A stretch of 64,000 bases of DNA from Methylotuvimicrobium buryatense 5G (lineage in GTDB: Bacteria > Pseudomonadota > Gammaproteobacteria > Methylococcales > Methylomonadaceae), in the NCBI RefSeq assembly GCF_000341735.1, contig NZ_KB455575.1:2171286-2235285 (forward strand), written 5' to 3'. Shown here in pieces: positions 54,864 through 64,000 of the stretch; the stretch's first letter is position 1; the number at the start of each line of letters is the position of its first letter. A model generated the notes under the pieces. The model was not told the DNA's origin and did not search any database. It was given only the letters and a program-made list of their open reading frames with translations. The position numbers were made by a program, and so were the translations under genes.

Positions 54864-55049
54864 AAGGAACGAGCATGAAATAACTTAGACAACTGTCGGA
54901 AGGGGGTTTGGTGACTCGCTTGACAGGTGTCGGCGGCAGGGATAGCCACCGTCAAGCCTACAGGGACGTATTCACGGCGTCCTGTCAAGCGAGTCACCAA
55001 ACCGCCACAAAGCCTACTACTTGTATAAGTTATTTTGTGCATATTCCTA
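54864..55049. repeat. B-type palindromic repeat
   Basis: Arms AAGGAACGAGCATGAAATAA / TTATTTTGTGCATATTCC and inner GGTTTGGTGACTCGCTTGAC / GTCAAGCGAGTCACCAAACC. Compensating changes in the two inner arms (GGTTTGG with CCAAACC here, GGTTCGG with CCGAACC at 51627) keep the pairing. Confidence 0.8.
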
Positions 55050-55187
55050 AGCTCCTTCGCTGTATCTCAAACTCCGGCTTGGGAACGAGCGAAAAACCTT
55101 TTTCGACAATGATGGTCGAAATGAAACACTTACTCCAAAAATCTTACTTTGCGAGTCCGAAACCCTAACAACATATTCGAGTAAATT

Positions 55188-55865
55188 ATGATGAATAAAA
55201 TACGAATAGGCCAAACCGTCCCACTTTTGCCTGTATCCGATTGGATACAGGGAAACCCCATTGATTTAACACAGCAAAACGGGCGCGTCGTACTGATCGA
55301 AGTCTTTCAACTCAATTGTCCCGGCTGCTTCCTCTATGGCTTGCCCCAGGCAATAGAAATGCATCGAAAATACTCCGATAAGGGCCTGACGGTCATCGGC
55401 ATATCAACGGCTTTCGAAGATTTCGATAAAAACACGCTGGACAACTTAAAGCTTTTGGTTAATCAACAACAGGTCATCGGGCATTCCTATCGCGTCTTAG
55501 CCGAACATGATTTGTTGGATGACGGCAAGCTGTCCTATCGGGTCCCATTTCCATTGGCGATGGACCGTTTGATCGAACGCCGGGCAAACTTCACCGACGA
55601 AGAAATTACCGAGTTCATAAATTCGCGTATTCCCGATTTCGAGCAACAAAGCGATCTGCAACGCGAGCAAATCCGGCAAAATGTAGCCTTTTATCTTGAA
55701 GGCCTTAAATACCGTGCCGAAACCTTCGAGCTTTTCGATCTGCAAGGCACGCCGTCCAGCATCCTGATCGACAAAGAAGGCAGGTTGGCCGAATGCTTGT
55801 TCGGACATGATCCCGAACTGGAATTCAGGATTCAAAAACTGCTTGAAGCAGAAATACAAAAATGA
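55188..55865 (+). CDS. thioredoxin-like redoxin-domain protein
   Basis: 225-residue thioredoxin-fold protein without a signal peptide. It has RVVLIEVFQLNCPGCFLYGLPQAIEMHRKY with the redox pair Cys44-Pro-Gly-Cys47, then GLTVIGISTAFEDFD as in TlpA/AhpC-TSA proteins, and the cis-Pro loop DLQGTPSSILIDKEGRL. A roughly 90-residue insertion between the strands is longer than in plain thioredoxins. Cytoplasmic thiol oxidoreductase or peroxidase-like role is likely; the partner is unknown. Confidence 0.78.
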   Translation: MMNKIRIGQTVPLLPVSDWIQGNPIDLTQQNGRVVLIEVFQLNCPGCFLYGLPQAIEMHRKYSDKGLTVIGISTAFEDFDKNTLDNLKLLVNQQQVIGHSYRVLAEHDLLDDGKLSYRVPFPLAMDRLIERRANFTDEEITEFINSRIPDFEQQSDLQREQIRQNVAFYLEGLKYRAETFELFDLQGTPSSILIDKEGRLAECLFGHDPELEFRIQKLLEAEIQK

Positions 55866-55954
55866 TGTTTTTTGCCATTCAGTTGGCAAAGAATTATCGA
55901 CGCATCAGAAGCCCTTATCGGACCAGTTCGCAACCAAACCAACCCGATCCGATC

Positions 55955-56022
55955 ATCGCGACGAAGGCGTCGCTCCCACAAAGGGTTTCCAAGCGCTTTG
56001 GGAGCGACGCCTTCGTCGCGAT
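55955..56022. repeat. REP-like palindrome
   Basis: ATCGCGACGAAGGCGTCGCT CCCACAAAG and CTTTGGGAGCGACGCCTTCG TCGCGAT are inverted arms around a 12-base loop. It is a classic gammaproteobacterial REP-type unit at the transcript end of the redoxin gene, unrelated to the A/B/C modules. Confidence 0.85.
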
Positions 56023-56101
56023 TTCGAAGCCCGGAGGGACAGTTATAAAGAAAAGATATCGAAGCCGCCCAGGCTAAATAAACTACACAACCAAAAAAGA
56101 T

Positions 56102-58498
56102 TCAAACATCCTCGAGCATCTTCAAGATCTGTTGGGCTTCTTCGATACCGATGAATTTTTCATCTTTGCCGACAGCCCGCTCGAGATGCTGTTTCGCCCG
56201 TTTGTGATCGCCTTGTTTGAAATACACCATACCCAACCGGTATTGAGCGATCGCCGACTCGGGTGCTAGCGCAGTGACTTTCAACAACAACTCTTTCGCT
56301 TGTTCGTAACTGCCTTGCTTATAGGCCAACACGGCGACCGTAAACAACATATCGGGATGACCCGTTTTCGCCAAAGGCGCGGCCAATTTAGCGGCACGAT
56401 CCAACGTTGCGCTATCGCCGCCCAGTTCGGTCAAATAACGGACCCAATTATTCAAAGCAACGGCCGAAGTCGGTTGCATACGGTAATTTTCCTCCAACAA
56501 GGCAAGCGCTTTATCATGAGCTCCGTCGCGGTGATAAAGCGCAACCAAATCGCCGGTCAACGTCGTCGATGCCGTTTTTTCGATGCCTTTTATCAAAACT
56601 TCGACCGCTTTGGTTTTATGGTTTTGATTGAGATAAATACCGGCCAAATTGCGGTACGGACTTTCCCACTCGGGCTTGATATCGATCGCCTTGTTGAATG
56701 CGGCGACCGCATCGTTCGCTTTGCCCGCCGCGGCCAACACGCCGCCCATCAAATTGTAAGCGACAAAATGCTCGGGTTGCCGCTTCACGGCTTCTTGAAG
56801 CTTGGCCAAAGCGCGGTCCGGCTTATTCAATTGCAGCTGGGTATTGACCAATTGCGTCAACGGTTCGATTGCATCGGGTTGATTGACCAACGCATCGGCA
56901 AAGCGCTCGACCGCCTTTTCGGAATTACCTTCGGCTTGGTATGACAAACCGGCCAGATAGTACCCCGTCGCTTCATCGGGAAAAGCTTGCTGCACGGCGT
57001 CCGATACTCGACGGGCTTGCTCCCATTGCCGTTGAGACAAATAAATCTTGAACAAAGCTTCCAATCCTTTTTTATGATTGGGATCGGCTTGCAACAGCGC
57101 GCCGATTTGCTGAACGGCTTTGCCGGGATTACCAGTAGTGAGCAACAATTCGGCCAATTCAAGCCTCGCATTCTCGTCGGCCGGCTGCAATTGCACGATT
57201 TTTTCAAGATTTTCCAGCGCCGGCACCGGATCTTGATTTAACCGATGAGCGGTGCTCAACAATTTCAATACGGCAACATCGTTCGAGCGGTCCGCCAACA
57301 CTTCACGAAAGTCTTGGATCGCGTCGGTCAAGCGGCTTTCGGCGAGCGCCAACTCGCCGCGCAAAATCAAGGCATCGCTTTGTTTGGGCTGTTTGTGCAA
57401 CACGAATTCGAGTAATTCGGCAGCTTGACTGTTTCGGCCGGTATTGGCGTAGAGCCTAGCCAAGCGATTTTCGGCATTGATGCCCTGAACGCCGGAAGAG
57501 TCGGCCTCGACTATCTCCAATAACGCTTGCTCGGCTTTATCGGTCAGATTTTGTGCCAGATACAAATTAACCAAGCCGAACTTCAACACAAAGTCGTCGG
57601 GATATTCTTCCAAGAGCGGAATCAATTCGGCTTCGGCGATTTCCGGCCCCCGCTTTTCGGTCAAGAAATCGAGCAGATTGACAATCGCTTGCCGATTGTC
57701 AGGCAAATCGATAACGGCATCGCGCAGTACGCTTTCAGCCTTGTCGAGTTGATTGTGCTCGATCAAAAACAAAGCCAATCGCTTACGGTGCAACAAGGGT
57801 TTCGGTTCGATTTTAATAATGTCTTCGAATGTTTTTTCGGCCTTGTCGAAAGCTTGAGTCTTGACGTATAGATTGACCAGCATCAAGAGTAACGAAGTAT
57901 CGTCGGAATTTTGATCGGCATAACCGCGTACAAACTCGATCGCTTGATCCAGTTTGCCCGATTTGGCCTTGAGCGACGCGAGCAGCAATACAGCCGGAAC
58001 GTCTCCCTGCCTTTTCGCGAGCGCGGCTTCCGCCTTAACGATCGCGGCATCGCTACTATTTTGCGCGGCCAAAATCCCAGCCTGCAAAACCAAGGCATCG
58101 GGACTCTCGGCATCGATAGCCAACGCCTGTTTCATCAATGTCTCGGCATCTTGGACTTGACCTGCCAACAGATAGATTTGTCCGAGTTTGACGCGGGCCT
58201 TCAAATGTTTCGGATCGGCATTGACGACCTGCCGGTAAAGGTCTGCGGCTTGTTGTACATTGCCCAACTTTACCGAAGTCTCGGCAGATTCGAACAAGGC
58301 TTCAACTTGATCCGGCTTGAATTCGAGCGCCTGTTCGAAAGCGGCAAGGGCTTGCTCGTAATCACCCGCTTTAAATAATTGCTTACCTTGTTCGAGATAT
58401 TCGTTCATTTGACGTTCGGTGTCGTCGCAGGCAGTCAAGGCTGCGGAAGAAAGGATGATAAAAAGAATGGAACGGTACTTTCGTATAAAAGACTTCAT
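56102..58498 (-). CDS. TPR-repeat lipoprotein
   Basis: 798-residue exported protein. Signal peptide and lipobox LTAC (ILFIILSSAALTAC) anchor it to a membrane. The remainder is a long array of tetratricopeptide repeats, e.g. EQGKQLFKAGDYEQALAAFEQALEFKPD and ATGYYLAGLSYQAEGNSEKAVERFADAL, some twenty units. Similar to TPR lipoproteins of the PrsT type found in PEP-CTERM genomes. Likely a periplasmic assembly scaffold. Same strand and next gene cluster after the coiled-coil/porin/TonB genes, but separated from them by 790 bp of repeats. Confidence 0.82.
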   Translation of the reverse strand: MKSFIRKYRSILFIILSSAALTACDDTERQMNEYLEQGKQLFKAGDYEQALAAFEQALEFKPDQVEALFESAETSVKLGNVQQAADLYRQVVNADPKHLKARVKLGQIYLLAGQVQDAETLMKQALAIDAESPDALVLQAGILAAQNSSDAAIVKAEAALAKRQGDVPAVLLLASLKAKSGKLDQAIEFVRGYADQNSDDTSLLLMLVNLYVKTQAFDKAEKTFEDIIKIEPKPLLHRKRLALFLIEHNQLDKAESVLRDAVIDLPDNRQAIVNLLDFLTEKRGPEIAEAELIPLLEEYPDDFVLKFGLVNLYLAQNLTDKAEQALLEIVEADSSGVQGINAENRLARLYANTGRNSQAAELLEFVLHKQPKQSDALILRGELALAESRLTDAIQDFREVLADRSNDVAVLKLLSTAHRLNQDPVPALENLEKIVQLQPADENARLELAELLLTTGNPGKAVQQIGALLQADPNHKKGLEALFKIYLSQRQWEQARRVSDAVQQAFPDEATGYYLAGLSYQAEGNSEKAVERFADALVNQPDAIEPLTQLVNTQLQLNKPDRALAKLQEAVKRQPEHFVAYNLMGGVLAAAGKANDAVAAFNKAIDIKPEWESPYRNLAGIYLNQNHKTKAVEVLIKGIEKTASTTLTGDLVALYHRDGAHDKALALLEENYRMQPTSAVALNNWVRYLTELGGDSATLDRAAKLAAPLAKTGHPDMLFTVAVLAYKQGSYEQAKELLLKVTALAPESAIAQYRLGMVYFKQGDHKRAKQHLERAVGKDEKFIGIEEAQQILKMLEDV

Positions 58499-58639
58499 GA
58501 ATAGTTTTTTGGTTCTGAAATTCGGGCACTCCTGATGGATTTTCCGATTGTAGTTTCTCCGCATTCTCCTAGTGCGGAAGCGGTTTGGAGAGATAATTGG
58601 TATAAGTTTTTGCTCCTTCCCAAGCTCTAGCTTGCACTG

Positions 58640-59280
58640 CCATTAAGATATCGAAACCCCTGTCATTCCGCCAAGGAGTGGCGGAATCCAGTGCCATGGA
58701 TGGCAAGCACTGAATACATCCGTGTAGTCTGGATGTCGGCAATCCATGCCGACATGACGGCTTAACATAATGACAGTGAGTTTTCTGGTTCCCACGGTCC
58801 TCCCTGAAAATCCATACGTTGGTTGCCGAGACAAGATCGGTATGCATTCCCACGGAGGACCGTCACTGTCATTAAGTTAAGGGAAACCCGTCATTCCGCC
58901 ACGGACTGGCGGAATCCAGTGCCATGGATGGCGGGCTTTTGAAGCACATTCGAGCCTGAATGCGGAAAATGCCAGCATTACTTATTCTTTGGCGGCTTAA
59001 CTTAATGGTAGTGACGGAGGACCGTGGGAATGAGGGAATACTTTCACAGTCTCTGGAGCTTGGGAAACAGCGGAACAACGCTTTCACTAAAGGTATTCTA
59101 TGTACAAAATGCCCTGCTGTCTTAGCCAATGAGACTTCGATGACTTTTATTGCGACCCGCCTTTGGCGGCTTCGATATCGCGATCTGGGGATCGCTCCCA
59201 CATCAGAGACCTCAAGTGCCACCCGGCAGGACGGGTTTTGCAAACCCGTCCGTAACATTTTGATATTGCTATCGTTAGCT
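58640..59280. repeat. patchwork of short inverted and direct repeats
   Basis: TGGCGGAATCCAGTGCCATG GATGGC occurs twice (near 58675 and 58906), each time after GTCATTCCGCCA. CCCACGGTCCTCC and GGAGGACCGTGGG also recur in both orientations (58792, 58853, 59013). GGACGGGTTT / AAACCCGTCC (59229-59251) is a tight hairpin with a 3-base loop. No gene in 58499-59289. Confidence 0.7.
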
Positions 59281-59289
59281 ATTCCTTCT

Positions 59290-60033
59290 TTAGCTGCCTT
59301 CCTCTTGACTTTGAATATCGTCAGGCTCTTGAATTTCTTCAGGTTTTGAATCTTGAGCGGATTCCTGCATTTCATCTACGATTTCTGTCTCTTCGTAAAC
59401 TTCTTCAGGCTCGGTCTTGCGCCTGTATTGTTGCTCGATCAATTTGTCTTCGTATTCCTGAATGATGTTTTCGAGTTCAACGCTTTTGAATTGAAAAACC
59501 GGCTCGGCCTGCACTAGTCGCGCCCAAAGACTTTGCCCGCCATAATCTTTGAGCATGTCTCGAGTTGCTTGATACATCTTGATATTTTTATTCTCGCAGG
59601 AATCCAGTTCCGAAACGGTAAATTCTTGGAGTTTTTGCAGCTCGGCATGCTCCAGGCTCAATTGGTTTTTGGACTGATTCAATACCTTATATTTTTCGAC
59701 AACTTCGACCAATTTCCCATGAGTTTGATCGAGCCGGCCGCGAACCGCTTCAATGGTACTTTTTTGCGTGTCCAGCTCGCCGCCCAGTTTTTCTTCACGA
59801 GAAACCGCCGCTTCATGCTGCTCTTTCAGCGTTTCGATCTCGGCGGCCAGCTTATCGTTTTCTGCTTTCAAGGCATCGCGCTCGGCGGTCATTTCGCGGA
59901 CCATCGCCTGCAGCTTGTTGATGACACGCGCGCTGCCGCCGTCGTCTCGCCTGGCTGCCTGAGCATAAACGGCATTCGATAACAATGAGGAAACAAACAA
60001 AACGGCCAAAAAATTTGAAATGATCTTGATCAT
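59290..60033 (-). CDS. periplasmic coiled-coil protein
   Basis: 247-residue exported protein. Signal peptide is MIKIISNFLAVLFVSSLLSNAVYAQA. Residues about 35-150 are a long coiled coil (VREMTAERDALKAENDKLAAEIETLKEQ). A short conserved middle, LDSCENKNIKMYQATRDMLKDYGGQSLWARLVQAEPVFQFKSVELENIIQEYEDKL, has a single Cys. The tail is very acidic (EEVYEETEIVDEMQESAQD). It lies 97 bases after the porin on the same strand (their frames overlap only if a longer start is taken), so the two are probably one operon. A periplasmic spacer or partner for the porin/TonB system is inference. Confidence 0.75.
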   Translation of the reverse strand: MIKIISNFLAVLFVSSLLSNAVYAQAARRDDGGSARVINKLQAMVREMTAERDALKAENDKLAAEIETLKEQHEAAVSREEKLGGELDTQKSTIEAVRGRLDQTHGKLVEVVEKYKVLNQSKNQLSLEHAELQKLQEFTVSELDSCENKNIKMYQATRDMLKDYGGQSLWARLVQAEPVFQFKSVELENIIQEYEDKLIEQQYRRKTEPEEVYEETEIVDEMQESAQDSKPEEIQEPDDIQSQEEGS

Positions 60034-60130
60034 AAGATTTGATGATATTCGGAAATTGATCACAATTGGCCGTCCGGACAGGACAAACATTGGCTCGCCT
60101 CTTCTATAGATTTCACGGCTCACCACAACC

Positions 60131-61894
60131 TTAAAACTTGGTGTTGATATCGATTTGGAAAACGTCGATACCATAAGGCGGCCCGGTTATCGCTTCTGCG
60201 GTTAGCCAGCGGCTAGTTAACCAAACATTGTTGAGCAGCGCATAGTTAGCCCCGAGAATCCAGCCTTTAGCATTCGTGCCGCCGAGGTGAAAGTCCGAAT
60301 CCGAAAAGGCATCGACTACCGCATCGCGTTCGACCCGTTTATAGGCGACAAAAGTACTCCAATTGCCTTTTTTATCGACTCTCAACCAACCCAAGTCGGC
60401 ACGTAATTGCCAAGCGGTAGTTTGTTCGTCCACTGCCCCGCTGCCCAAAGCGCCGCCTAATACTCTCGCGGCTGCCACTTTTTCGCTGTCGAAGCCGATG
60501 TTCTTTGCATAATCACCGGATAACGTTAAGTGAATCGGATCAAATAAGGCCATATCATAGCGTGCGGTAAAATTGACAATTTTAAACTCAGACGCTAAAC
60601 CAACCATACCGGGAAATTCGCTGGGTAAAGGATCATTAAATGCACCGTCACGACAGATTGTTGCCAGCGTATTACCGCCTTGCATGAATTCCGGCATCGA
60701 AGCGGTATTTTCACGAGAATTGACATCGCAGGTACCGGATGCGGTTGATGTATTCGGCCTGGCTGTGATATTTTTAAAATCATAATAAGCCAAAGCCATT
60801 CTCAGATTGTCTTTATTTTTAAATCCCCAGTCCAAACCAACCTGTCCGCCGAACAGCCATTTATCGTTATGACTGAATGGAGCTTCCTGCAGCGGAAAAG
60901 CCCCACCTGTCGCATAGAGTACTCGTGCGCCGTCACCTAAACCATTAGACAATCCTAAGTTGTATCGATAAGTCGCCGCAAAACCTTCGAATGACAAATC
61001 GGTATCCCAAACCAACTCGGAGCCACTGGTGAACTCCCCCCCTCCAACGAAAAAAGGATTTTTGATACGTCCGCCCATCAGAGAAAGCCAATTAAAACCG
61101 AAACTGTCGACATCGTCGTATTGAAGATAGGCCCGGTCGATGTTGAAGTCATAACGATCGCCTGTTTGCCCCATGGTTTGATTTGTTGAAACGGGATCTC
61201 TGAAATTACCGGTCGATAGACGGATTCCGGCTTCTAAACCTTCCGCGATATCGGCATCGATGCCCAACCGAAAGCGTTGCCGAAAGCGCTGATTGTTCGT
61301 CGTAGTATTTTCGATAAGGTCCAACCCCGCATTTCTGGCACCGCCCAGTTGATTGATTGCTTGTCCATTCGGATAAAAAGGGAAAATACTCAAGCCGCTG
61401 GCATTTTCATCGGCATAAAAAACCGGCTCATACCGCAAACGCAAATCCCCCGACAACTTAAATTTTCGAGTCCATTCCGGCAAGGCATCGGCCAAACCCC
61501 AACCTTCTTCCTTGGCCTTACTGATTACGTCACCGGTAACATCTTCGCGCAATTCCGCGCGGATCTCATCGCGAATTTGATCCTTGATAAAATCGGGAAT
61601 ATAGGAAACCCGGACTTCGTCGTCGGCGAGTTCGCCAACCGATGCCGCATTGCTTAGCGCCGCGGCGGTCCTTGCTTGCGATGCGATCTTCCCAGCTTCG
61701 GCTTCGGCTTCCTTGAACATCGTTTCAGCGGTTTCTTCGGTCAAAACGCCTTGTTTGACCAATTGCTTGATTAGGCTTTCGGTCGTGCTGCGCAGTTTCA
61801 GCAATTCCTCTTTTTCACCGGCCTGCACCGGCCCTAAAACGCTCAACAACACTAAGGCCGTGACAGCCTTTTTCTGTAACATTGTCTTTCCCAT
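60131..61894 (-). CDS. putative outer-membrane porin with periplasmic N-terminal helix
   Basis: 587-residue protein (583 if the second ATG at 61882 is used, which has GGGAAAG upstream). Signal peptide ends VQAGEK. About 40-145 is helical and rich in Ala/Glu (LRSTTESLIKQLVKQGVLTEETAETMFKEAEAEA), resembling the periplasmic oligomerisation part of a putative porin family. From about 150 on, alternating beta strands with aromatic girdles run to the end, which terminates in DVFQIDINTKF, a C-terminal Phe as in outer-membrane barrels. Its gene sits directly after tonB (9-base gap), suggesting functional linkage to the TonB/ExbBD energy system. Confidence 0.8.
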   Translation of the reverse strand: MGKTMLQKKAVTALVLLSVLGPVQAGEKEELLKLRSTTESLIKQLVKQGVLTEETAETMFKEAEAEAGKIASQARTAAALSNAASVGELADDEVRVSYIPDFIKDQIRDEIRAELREDVTGDVISKAKEEGWGLADALPEWTRKFKLSGDLRLRYEPVFYADENASGLSIFPFYPNGQAINQLGGARNAGLDLIENTTTNNQRFRQRFRLGIDADIAEGLEAGIRLSTGNFRDPVSTNQTMGQTGDRYDFNIDRAYLQYDDVDSFGFNWLSLMGGRIKNPFFVGGGEFTSGSELVWDTDLSFEGFAATYRYNLGLSNGLGDGARVLYATGGAFPLQEAPFSHNDKWLFGGQVGLDWGFKNKDNLRMALAYYDFKNITARPNTSTASGTCDVNSRENTASMPEFMQGGNTLATICRDGAFNDPLPSEFPGMVGLASEFKIVNFTARYDMALFDPIHLTLSGDYAKNIGFDSEKVAAARVLGGALGSGAVDEQTTAWQLRADLGWLRVDKKGNWSTFVAYKRVERDAVVDAFSDSDFHLGGTNAKGWILGANYALLNNVWLTSRWLTAEAITGPPYGIDVFQIDINTKF

Positions 61895-61903
61895 TAACTG
61901 AAG

Positions 61904-62557
61904 TTAAATGCGGTTCGTAATTCGAAATTTGATCGGCTGTTTCATCCCGGCCGGCGGGGCTTTATTGATTCGTTTCAACTTGGAGAGCGTCATTTGCAAC
62001 TTTTCGTCGATCCGAGCATCGTCACTGCCCCGGACCAATTCAAATCGAGTCACATTACCTTGCTTATCGACCCAGATACGAACCGTCGCCGTGTAACGCG
62101 TTCTACGTAAATCGTCGACCTCGGAAATCACCACTTGCATTTGATTCCTGATAATATTGCCGTACCAAGCGTTGGGATTGCCGCTCAACAATCCGCGCCC
62201 GCCTTTCCGTGCAGCCAAGCCAAAGCCGTCGGAACCGGCGCTGCCGTCAGCATCAAGTCCCAAACTATCGGCAGGCGGCGCATCGTCGACATCCGGGAGA
62301 TTTTCAGGCTCCGGATCAGGCTCCGGGATCTTTTCCTCGATCTTTTCCGGCTCGGGCGGCTTCTCAATTTTCGGTGGGGGCGGAGGAGGCGGCGGCGGCT
62401 TCAACAAGGTAATCGGCTGGATTTTTTTTTGCGGACGCTCGTCGCTGTCTTGCTTGAAATTGCTAATGCCGTAAATTATCAGAGCCACCAAAATCAAACC
62501 AATCACGCCGCCGATGATCTTCGGCAGATGCACCTTCCAGCTTTTGTGTTTACTCAT
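61904..62557 (-). CDS. TonB-like energy transducer
   Basis: 217-residue protein: one N-terminal membrane segment (IIGGVIGLILVALIIYGI), a Pro-rich spacer (nine consecutive Pro, then EPEKIEEKIPEPDPEPE), and a C-terminal TonB-type domain (YTATVRIWVDKQGNVTRFELVRGSDDARIDEKLQMTLSKLK). It transfers proton-motive force from ExbBD to an outer-membrane partner. Located between exbD-type and porin genes, in the order ExbB-ExbD-TonB-porin on the minus strand. The anchor His of E. coli TonB is not evident in the helix. Confidence 0.85.
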   Translation of the reverse strand: MSKHKSWKVHLPKIIGGVIGLILVALIIYGISNFKQDSDERPQKKIQPITLLKPPPPPPPPPKIEKPPEPEKIEEKIPEPDPEPENLPDVDDAPPADSLGLDADGSAGSDGFGLAARKGGRGLLSGNPNAWYGNIIRNQMQVVISEVDDLRRTRYTATVRIWVDKQGNVTRFELVRGSDDARIDEKLQMTLSKLKRINKAPPAGMKQPIKFRITNRI

Positions 62558-62564
62558 AACCGCG

Positions 62565-62969
62565 TTATTTGACTAGGTTCTGCGTCACCAGACCGATCTG
62601 CGTAATATCGATGCGGCCCATTAAAGCCAATACATCAACAACGTTCTGATATTGCACGGTCGCATCGCCTTTGATGATCACTGGCAATTCCGGATCAGCC
62701 GCACGGTACTGTTGTAGTAATGATTCCAACTGCTCCAACGTTACCGGATAGGTATCGAGAAAAATCGTACCGTCGGCCGTGATCGTGATTGCCTTGGTTT
62801 TCGGCTTGGCCAAACTCGGTGTATCACTGGCTTTCGGTAAATTGACGGTGATTCCTTGCACGGCGGCCGTGGTCATGATAATGAAGACGATTAACAACAC
62901 ATAGGCCAAATCCAACATGGACGTGACATTGATATCGTCGTAACTTTCCAGTTCTTCTTTGTAACGCAT
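62565..62969 (-). CDS. ExbD/TolR-family protein
   Basis: 134-residue inner-membrane protein with one segment near the N-terminus. The proton-relevant Asp is visible in NVTSMLDLAYVLLIVFIIMTTAAV (Asp20), followed by a periplasmic domain VNLPKASDTPSL ... ADGTIFLDTYPVTLEQLESLL. It forms the channel's stator with the ExbB-type protein encoded 76 bases upstream. Seven bases from the TonB-like gene, so cotranscribed. Confidence 0.88.
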   Translation of the reverse strand: MRYKEELESYDDINVTSMLDLAYVLLIVFIIMTTAAVQGITVNLPKASDTPSLAKPKTKAITITADGTIFLDTYPVTLEQLESLLQQYRAADPELPVIIKGDATVQYQNVVDVLALMGRIDITQIGLVTQNLVK

Positions 62970-63045
62970 AATAAATAACTCGTTCGTATTTGGTCAGAGC
63001 GAGACTAAAGATACTCGCTGCCTGGCAATTCAAGAGGTCCGCTGA

Positions 63046-64000
63046 TTAATCGGAGTAACGCTCGGAGAGTTTGGCCGTAAACTCGTCGACAAAAATATAC
63101 ATATCGGCGGAAATCAATTTAATACGGCTATTCAAATAGTTATAACCGAACAAACACGGAATCGCGACAACCAGACCCGCAACGGTTGTAGCCAATGCCG
63201 CTGCAATACCGGGTGCGATCGCATTGACGTTAACCTCGCCGCTTGCGGCGATTTCGCCGAAGGTCGCCATAACCCCGATTACGGTACCGAGCAGACCTAA
63301 AAACGGACCTCCGGAAATAGAAATTGTCAGTAACACCATCAGACTATTGAGTTTTTGCGTTTCTCGAATCAAACAAGATTCCATCGCTGCTCGAATCGAA
63401 TCCATGCCTTTATCGGTGACAAACGCCTCGGCAACATCGGCGCCGACACTCTTGGCAAGGCGATTGTGCAGTTCTTCTATACCGACATGATACAACCGGT
63501 AAACGGAAGACCCGGTAAAACGTTCATGCCCCCCGGTCAACGAAGCCAACAATGGCGAGGCATTGACCGCTTCGTCGTCCTCGGTATCTTCGTGGTTCAG
63601 CGCTTCCAATTCGGCAGTTTTCAACTTCATGAACTCGTCTTCGAAGTTTCTGTTTTCTTTATGATTTTTGATCAATACCAACGCCTTCGCGGCCATCACC
63701 AAAAAACTGATAACCAACATCACCGCCAATATTCCGATGATGATCCACCCATCGAGCGATACATGCTGCATCGTCGACATCACATGCGACCCACCGCCGC
63801 CTTCCGATTCCGGCGATAAATCTTCGCCGTACACCAATAACGGCGAAGCCTGCCCTTGCATCAATGCATCGAATTTGATCGCTTCTGCCGAACGCGGAGA
63901 CTTGTAAACACTTAATTGATCGATCGCGCCGACCAATCCGCGCGCGCCATAGGCATCGCCACCAATGGTAATATCGCCGTCAAAGCCGGGAACTATTATC
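63046..64000 (-). CDS. ExbB/TolQ/MotA-type proton channel with N-terminal periplasmic domain, partial
   Basis: Frame open to the window end (318 visible codons with stop). C-terminal two-thirds is an ExbB/TolQ-type channel: a segment DGWIIIGILAVMLVISFLVMAAKALV, a cytoplasmic loop, then SGGPFLGLLGTVIGVMATFGEIA and GIAAALATTVAGLVVAIPCLFGYNYL. Before the first segment are residues that fit the end of a LamG/concanavalin-like domain (GFDGDITIGGDAYGARGLVGAIDQLSVYK), so this is a fusion of a periplasmic carbohydrate-binding-like domain with ExbB. Its start lies outside the window. Works with the ExbD- and TonB-type proteins next to it. Confidence 0.82.
   Translation of the reverse strand, partial: IIVPGFDGDITIGGDAYGARGLVGAIDQLSVYKSPRSAEAIKFDALMQGQASPLLVYGEDLSPESEGGGGSHVMSTMQHVSLDGWIIIGILAVMLVISFLVMAAKALVLIKNHKENRNFEDEFMKLKTAELEALNHEDTEDDEAVNASPLLASLTGGHERFTGSSVYRLYHVGIEELHNRLAKSVGADVAEAFVTDKGMDSIRAAMESCLIRETQKLNSLMVLLTISISGGPFLGLLGTVIGVMATFGEIAASGEVNVNAIAPGIAAALATTVAGLVVAIPCLFGYNYLNSRIKLISADMYIFVDEFTAKLSERYSD

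Follow-up and report, generated by a model that had tools for sequence, protein, structure and literature searches.

The question raised by one end of a 64,000-nucleotide stretch of Methylotuvimicrobium buryatense 5G (contig NZ_KB455575.1, positions 2,171,286 to 2,235,285; hereafter the window) is what an ExbB-ExbD-TonB motor might act upon when the outer-membrane protein encoded beside it is a porin. A preliminary description of this locus had proposed that TonB acts on the porin, perhaps by way of a coiled-coil protein encoded next to it. A system composed of TonB and porin alone now appears unlikely, and the constant partner lies outside the window. This partner is a pair of two-partner secretion (TPS) proteins, namely TpsB and a giant TpsA that ends in a DUF3739 domain. 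We consider it highly probable (roughly 0.9) that the cassette of five genes is a functional partner of this TpsA, because the gene order is fixed, the genes are inherited together almost perfectly, the porins carry a form-specific segment, and the TpsA proteins end in a conserved motif. This suggests that the DUF3739 branch of two-partner secretion may draw its energy from the inner membrane.

The genome that carries this locus is 5.07 Mb in size, and its close relatives are methanotrophs of the Methylococcales. The open reading frames (ORFs) of the window and the families they match confirm the five genes in the order originally described. They are consecutive and all are located on the minus strand, as follows.

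63046..64000, minus strand, running past the window edge to ~64854: ExbB-type channel (ORF and family profiles).
62565..62969, minus strand: ExbD/TolR-family protein of 134 amino acids (ExbD profile, 99 bits).
61904..62557, minus strand: TonB-family protein of 217 amino acids (TonB_2, 28.9 bits, above its cut-off).
60131..61894, minus strand: long-form Porin_5 outer-membrane protein of 587 amino acids (Porin_5, PF16930, 696 bits).
61590..61615 (approximate), minus strand: codons for EVRVSYIPD within the porin, where TonB or the coiled-coil rod might make contact.
59290..60174, minus strand: exported coiled-coil protein (ORF and structure prediction).

The gaps between these genes are 76 nucleotides (ExbB-ExbD), 7 (ExbD-TonB), 9 (TonB-porin) and about 97 (porin-coiled-coil). 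The ORF of the coiled-coil protein opens within the porin gene, and its likely start, judged from relatives and from the signal peptide, is near 60033.

The TPS genes are found beyond the window edge and run divergently from exbB. Their positions are given in window coordinates, which are obtained by adding 58,714 to those of the mapped locus L009.

~65334-66839 (L009:6620-8125), divergent from exbB: exported protein of 501 amino acids, weakly PstS-like.
~66964-68553, divergent from exbB: TpsB (POTRA_2 62.5 bits, ShlB 58.3 bits).
~68559-78878, divergent from exbB: TpsA of 3,439 amino acids, with an N-terminal TPS domain (PF05860, 91.6 bits) and a C-terminal DUF3739 domain.
~79033-81084 (L044:12318-14369): exported protein with PKD repeats, after TpsA.

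A TpsA with a TPS domain and a TpsB with POTRA and a ShlB/Omp85 barrel are the components that define two-partner secretion, and both are present here.

Evidence for a partnership comes from the distribution of these genes, which was examined in 398 evenly drawn genomes of Pseudomonadota and in 61 genomes of relatives. There are only 20 genomes in the phylum sample with DUF3739 and 20 with a long Porin_5 protein, and the two sets are identical and span 12 families. DUF2341, which is part of the ExbB protein, is present in 19 genomes that all belong to this set, and in the remaining genome of the set (G290) ExbB is truncated by a contig end. Under independence the probability of two identical 20-genome sets is about 4e-34, although the true probability is larger because the genomes are related. 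Simple descent is nevertheless an insufficient explanation, since three families (f12, f13 and f15) mix positive and negative genomes. None of the 8 genomes that have only a short or partial Porin_5 match carries DUF3739. A broader rule, in which every Porin_5 protein pairs with a TonB, was rejected because the short Porin_5 proteins are unlinked.

Among the relatives, a long Porin_5 protein is present in 22 of 61 genomes and all 22 also have a TpsA, which is about 3,360-3,650 amino acids long in 21 of them and a fragment of 453 amino acids in the other. Relatives that have two cassettes also have two giant TpsAs. The complete GenBank genome of Methylomonas sp. LW13 carries two cassettes (L052 and L113). 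The family of the 501-amino-acid protein is present in exactly these 22 genomes. This protein has no PF12849 match, a sequence search of the PDB gave nothing useful for it, and a profile comparison with the PstS proteins of the same genome reached 41% probability over 69 columns. With PF12849 unmatched and the profile comparison weak, kinship with PstS is only a lead.

Neighbourhood maps were made for 116 non-redundant long-porin loci, 86 of which have enough flanking sequence. The order ExbB-ExbD-TonB-porin-coiled-coil is fixed. By script, the complete five-gene cassette is found in 76 of these 86 loci, and TPS genes are found in the fetched stretch in 78. Most of the other 10 loci are threshold misses or lack the coiled-coil gene alone; in L131, L138 and L147, for example, TonB was missed through the distance or score limits of the script. 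An additional 18 genomes of the phylum sample agree with the arrangement. The porin and coiled-coil genes therefore belong to the exbBD-tonB unit, and their conservation in relatives upholds the preliminary description on this point. Moreover, no TonB-dependent receptor is found among the ORFs of the stretch examined, about 9 kb on one side and about 20 kb on the other, also in keeping with that description.

The run TpsB-ExbB-ExbD-TonB-porin-coiled-coil occurs uninterrupted in loci from alpha-, beta- and gammaproteobacteria, and in several loci the TpsB and coiled-coil genes overlap by 4 base pairs. Many cassette operons include a PpiC-type chaperone, which fits a role in protein assembly. 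In G279 (locus L149) there is a natural split, wherein TpsB, porin, coiled-coil protein and TpsA are encoded together and ExbB, ExbD and TonB are found jointly on another contig. The cassette is accompanied by TpsA and TpsB on plasmid records of Klebsiella, Methylosinus and Aquabacterium. One conjugative Klebsiella plasmid (NZ_CP084804.1, L132) carries a whole cluster like the Pdt cluster of Pseudomonas aeruginosa discussed below, and another plasmid (NZ_CP065459.1, L125) has its TpsB reading frame broken into two parts. A tandem pair of ExbD genes is located within the cassette at L128:10342-11158 and L144:11219-12034.

The C-termini of the TpsA proteins exhibit a short motif that may be the part on which the cassette acts. 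Each of the 65 non-redundant C-ends of DUF3739 proteins has SV(D/E)(V/I/L)(L/V/I)G(F/Y)G or a sequence close to it, a count that is descriptive and not a test because this relaxed pattern was drawn up with the sequences in view, after a first regular expression had missed 20 of the 65 ends. A narrower pattern matches 45 of the 65 ends, is found only twice in the 121,549 other residues of the same proteins, and is found in no control TpsA end. The control ORFs include other TpsAs of the relatives, and one of the control loci (L171) in fact belongs to the cassette type, with a variant of the motif. The motif is preceded by a low-complexity linker and often forms the very last residues of the protein. 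In one clade (L026, L031, L034, L109, L118 and others) the C-ends have an added two-cysteine tail, GYGDCSVADVREGKPGCGG, which resembles the cysteine-hook anchors of other TpsAs.

The TpsB proteins of this class also appear to have a short N-terminus. In most members the POTRA region starts only about 5-20 residues past the likely signal peptide, whereas in four control TpsBs this interval is longer, a comparison of sequence length only. There is apparently no room for the usual plug helix before POTRA. In a TpsB that indeed lacks this helix, TpsA may remain lodged in the pore.

The porin encoded in the window consists of a signal peptide, periplasmic helices, a VRVxYIPD segment (residues 94-101), and a 16-strand barrel (residues 145-586) that ends in phenylalanine. 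In an AlphaFold model built with 51 sequences, helices at residues 27-47, 53-82 and 101-130 precede the barrel (mean predicted local distance difference test, pLDDT, 76.7; predicted template modelling score, pTM, 0.70). The model has no plug domain and has 16 strands rather than the 22 of a TonB-dependent transporter, and Porin_5 is the only family matched. The closest solved folds are OmpM1 (template modelling score 0.75 by target length), followed by MOMP, AlgE and general porins, while a sequence search of the PDB with the porin gave nothing useful. In the long porins as a group, the segment reads VRVxYVPE and, together with the helix that comes after it, separates the first helices from the barrel. 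It is present in all long porins and absent from all short Porin_5 proteins compared. This segment follows a variable linker and thus has a position like that of a TonB box.

The exported coiled-coil protein is predicted to form a single helix of 132 residues (82-213), with pLDDT above 95 along most of its length and a hydrophobic periodicity of 3.5 residues. At 1.5 angstrom per residue this rod would extend for about 200 angstrom, which is near the width of the periplasm. A lone rod is expected to give a low pTM, and that of the model is 0.37. Residues C193 and N197 (ORF numbering) are invariant.

The complete ExbB ORF encodes 602 amino acids comprising a signal peptide, DUF2341, a concanavalin-like LamG domain and a MotA/TolQ/ExbB channel, with the DUF2341-LamG portion encoded beyond the window edge. 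Curated cut-offs for TolQ (118.6 versus 221) and TolR (85.7 versus 127.3) are not reached, and the Tol-Pal partners TolA, TolB and Pal are not among the cassette neighbours. The window TonB diverges more than any other TonB of its genome, having the weakest TonB_C match of eight, which falls under the cut-off of that family. A central block, LGLDADGxAGSDGFGLAARxGG, is conserved among cassette TonBs, and the window protein is the sole TonB of its genome with the GSDGFGL block. Searching the PDB with this TonB sequence gave nothing useful, the match being to a proline-rich tract.

A possible regulatory signal is located 48 base pairs upstream of the exbB start (~64903-64920 in window coordinates), where the sequence CCGTCATAATCGTGTCAT resembles a Pho box at 12 of 14 positions. 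The genome's own pstS gene has a 13/14 site. Sites with at least 9 of 14 matches occur 30-60 base pairs upstream in 25 of 50 relatives versus 3.3 in shuffled sequence, although some relatives are close and the 50 are not independent. These promoters suggest that the cassette may be under phosphate-starvation control. A general scan for promoter and terminator patterns gave no improvement over shuffled sequence. In P. aeruginosa, a single promoter drives transcription of phdA-pdtB-exbB2D2-tonB4-PA0696-PA0701 (PMC4971064), and PdtA and PA0696 show some of the strongest increases of any proteins under phosphate limitation (PMC9769906).

This P. aeruginosa cluster, PUMA3/Pdt (pdtA, phdA, pdtB, exbB2, exbD2, tonB4, PA0696-PA0701), appears to be a system of the same kind as that of the window, based on gene order and published annotation. 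Both have the order exbB-exbD-tonB-porin-coiled-coil with TpsA and TpsB, and phosphate control in P. aeruginosa may have a counterpart in the Pho-box-like site of the window cassette. The published order TpsB-ExbB-ExbD-TonB-porin-exported protein-YbjN-PpiC is matched gene for gene in L136 and in the Klebsiella locus L132. In the window genome, however, TpsB and TpsA are divergent from exbB, a substrate-binding-like gene replaces phdA, and a TPR lipoprotein follows. No VreAIR, YbjN, PpiC or LysR genes were seen near the window cassette, with VreAIR sought by eye over 55,000-64,000 and about 20 kb beyond. In the literature, the exbB2-exbD2-tonB4 set is regarded as a TonB system still to be characterised and PA0696 as a putative porin (PMC7035377). 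Another report already notes ExbBD and PA0696 homologues alongside TPS genes in other genera (PMC2729926). DUF3739 is unmentioned in the literature searched. To this published record we add the exact co-occurrence, the ExbB fusion, the segment of the porin, the rod, the C-terminal motif of TpsA, the N-terminus of TpsB and the conserved promoter site.

Other known systems share only some of these features. Type Vb systems such as FhaB/FhaC, CdiA/CdiB and HMW1A/B have the same TPS domain in TpsA and the same POTRA and ShlB/Omp85 barrel in TpsB, but the window system adds a dedicated Ton motor, porin, rod, DUF3739 and C-terminal motif, and its TpsB is apparently without the plug helix. ExbB, ExbD and the TonB_2/TonB_C domains are common to systems that drive TonB-dependent transporters, whereas here the outer-membrane partner is an unplugged 16-strand porin and ExbB carries a DUF2341-LamG periplasmic domain. 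OmpM1 of Veillonella parvula, a 16-strand attachment porin, is the best structural match, although its identity to the window porin is 14-15%, the PDB search showed no sequence relation, and the structural resemblance concerns the barrel. HxuABC of Haemophilus influenzae links a TPS adhesin functionally to a Ton system (PMC5422565), but TonB there targets a normal receptor, HxuC, and no receptor was seen in the stretch examined around the window system.

One gene that the preliminary description considered a possible member of the system is listed below.

56102..58564, minus strand: PrsT-like TPR lipoprotein, a doubtful member (downstream of the cassette only in Methylococcaceae, where many loci have it).

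Many Methylococcaceae loci have this gene downstream of the coiled-coil gene, but none of the mapped alpha, beta or other gamma loci do. It was therefore rejected as a core part and is at most a clade-specific addition. Past this lipoprotein, a peroxiredoxin-like gene (AhpC/TSA, 55188-55865, opposite strand) is retained in the close relatives L010-L013.

These observations lead us to propose that the window genes supply one half of a two-partner secretion system of the DUF3739 type, namely its inner-membrane motor and the parts that span the envelope. TpsA would exit through TpsB with its N-terminus leading, and its C-terminal end (DUF3739, the flexible linker and the SV(D/E)xxG(F/Y)G motif) would be retained in the periplasm. 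There the periplasmic stalk of the porin, the coiled-coil rod and TonB might together form a complex that holds it. ExbB and ExbD would then apply the proton-motive force via the dedicated TonB, such that the filament is pulled, held or released, with phosphate starvation as the probable on-switch. Judged from sequence features, energised handling of the TpsA C-terminus by the cassette falls slightly short of even odds. A more specific version is doubtful: perhaps SV(D/E)xxG(F/Y)G of TpsA, and possibly VRVxYVPE of the porin, act as TonB boxes, so that the dedicated TonB grips the periplasmic end of the filament and the proton-motive force finishes, holds or releases it. This would constitute a proton-powered class of type V secretion.

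Several observations weigh against the proposed partnership and its energised mechanism. In zebrafish embryos, P. aeruginosa mutants of PA0695 (a tonB homologue) and of PA0696 had wild-type virulence (PMC2729926). Type V translocation is reported to be energy-free, and TpsA translocation has been reconstituted in liposomes, albeit with a class other than DUF3739 (PMC5422565). Four loci (L140, L141, L143 and L150) have no recognisable coiled-coil gene, and in L030/L129, L122 and L149 the porin is located beside TpsA and TpsB while exbBD-tonB is missing from the fetched stretch.

Other functions for the cassette can be envisioned. Perhaps, under phosphate starvation, a nutrient that contains phosphate is caught by the filament and a secreted binding protein and then taken up through the porin, which TonB would open. 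This would make sense of the Pho-box-like site before exbB and its kept position in relatives, the strong box of pstS, the response of PdtA and PA0696 to phosphate limitation, and the faintly PstS-like protein beside TpsB that tracks the long porin. Yet the cassette has no inner-membrane transporter, an unplugged 16-strand barrel needs no known gating, the binding-like protein does not match PF12849, the constant tie to TpsA/TpsB and PpiC goes unexplained, and phosphate regulation suits an adhesin equally. We consider uptake unlikely. Cell-surface signalling is quite improbable; here the receptor energised by TonB would govern the TPS genes, and the porin would play no part beyond being regulated along with them. 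The P. aeruginosa cluster is under the sigma factor VreI (PMC2729926, PMC7035377), and a Methylosinus locus (L127) is adjoined by sigma, FecR and STN genes. Similarly, at the coiled-coil gene position of L141 (3090-9046; also in L140 and L143) there is a Phd-like short ORF recognised by eye, followed by genes on the same strand for an extracytoplasmic function (ECF) sigma factor, a FecR-type regulator and an STN-domain TonB-dependent receptor. However, no such genes are found around the window cassette in the stretch examined or in most Methylococcaceae loci, and signalling leaves the conservation of long porin and rod unexplained.

A surface-motility machine, as the preliminary description had entertained, would have a Ton-type motor drive porin-anchored filaments along the envelope in the manner of Glt/Agl or Gld. 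ExbB and ExbD are kin of gliding motors (PMC12505986), and such a machine could be assembled from the giant filament, the porin, the rod and the TPR lipoprotein. The matches to GltJ (15 versus a curated cut-off of 450) and GltE (101 versus 225) are weak and far under the thresholds, no MglA or Gld genes turned up although no search was aimed at them, and the Glt/Agl and Gld systems have no TonB-type coupler. This leaves a gliding machine unsupported and very improbable. The least probable alternative is that separate functions are served by the Ton-porin cassette and by the DUF3739 TPS genes, which would merely share their transfer and regulation. The genes are adjacent and occur on plasmids, and linkage by itself would generate co-occurrence; but the match of presence and absence is exact over 12 families and also holds where the parts are on separate contigs or distant (G279, G054 and G057).

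If the proposed partnership of the cassette with DUF3739 TpsA proteins, with energised handling of the filament, is true, the energy-free description of type V secretion (PMC5422565) would be challenged for this class of TpsA. The exbB2-exbD2-tonB4-PA0696 operon of P. aeruginosa would gain a function, and TonB would gain an outer-membrane target besides plugged receptors. The question lends itself to a direct test, since the C-terminal motif, the porin segment and the rod each offer a small and specific target.

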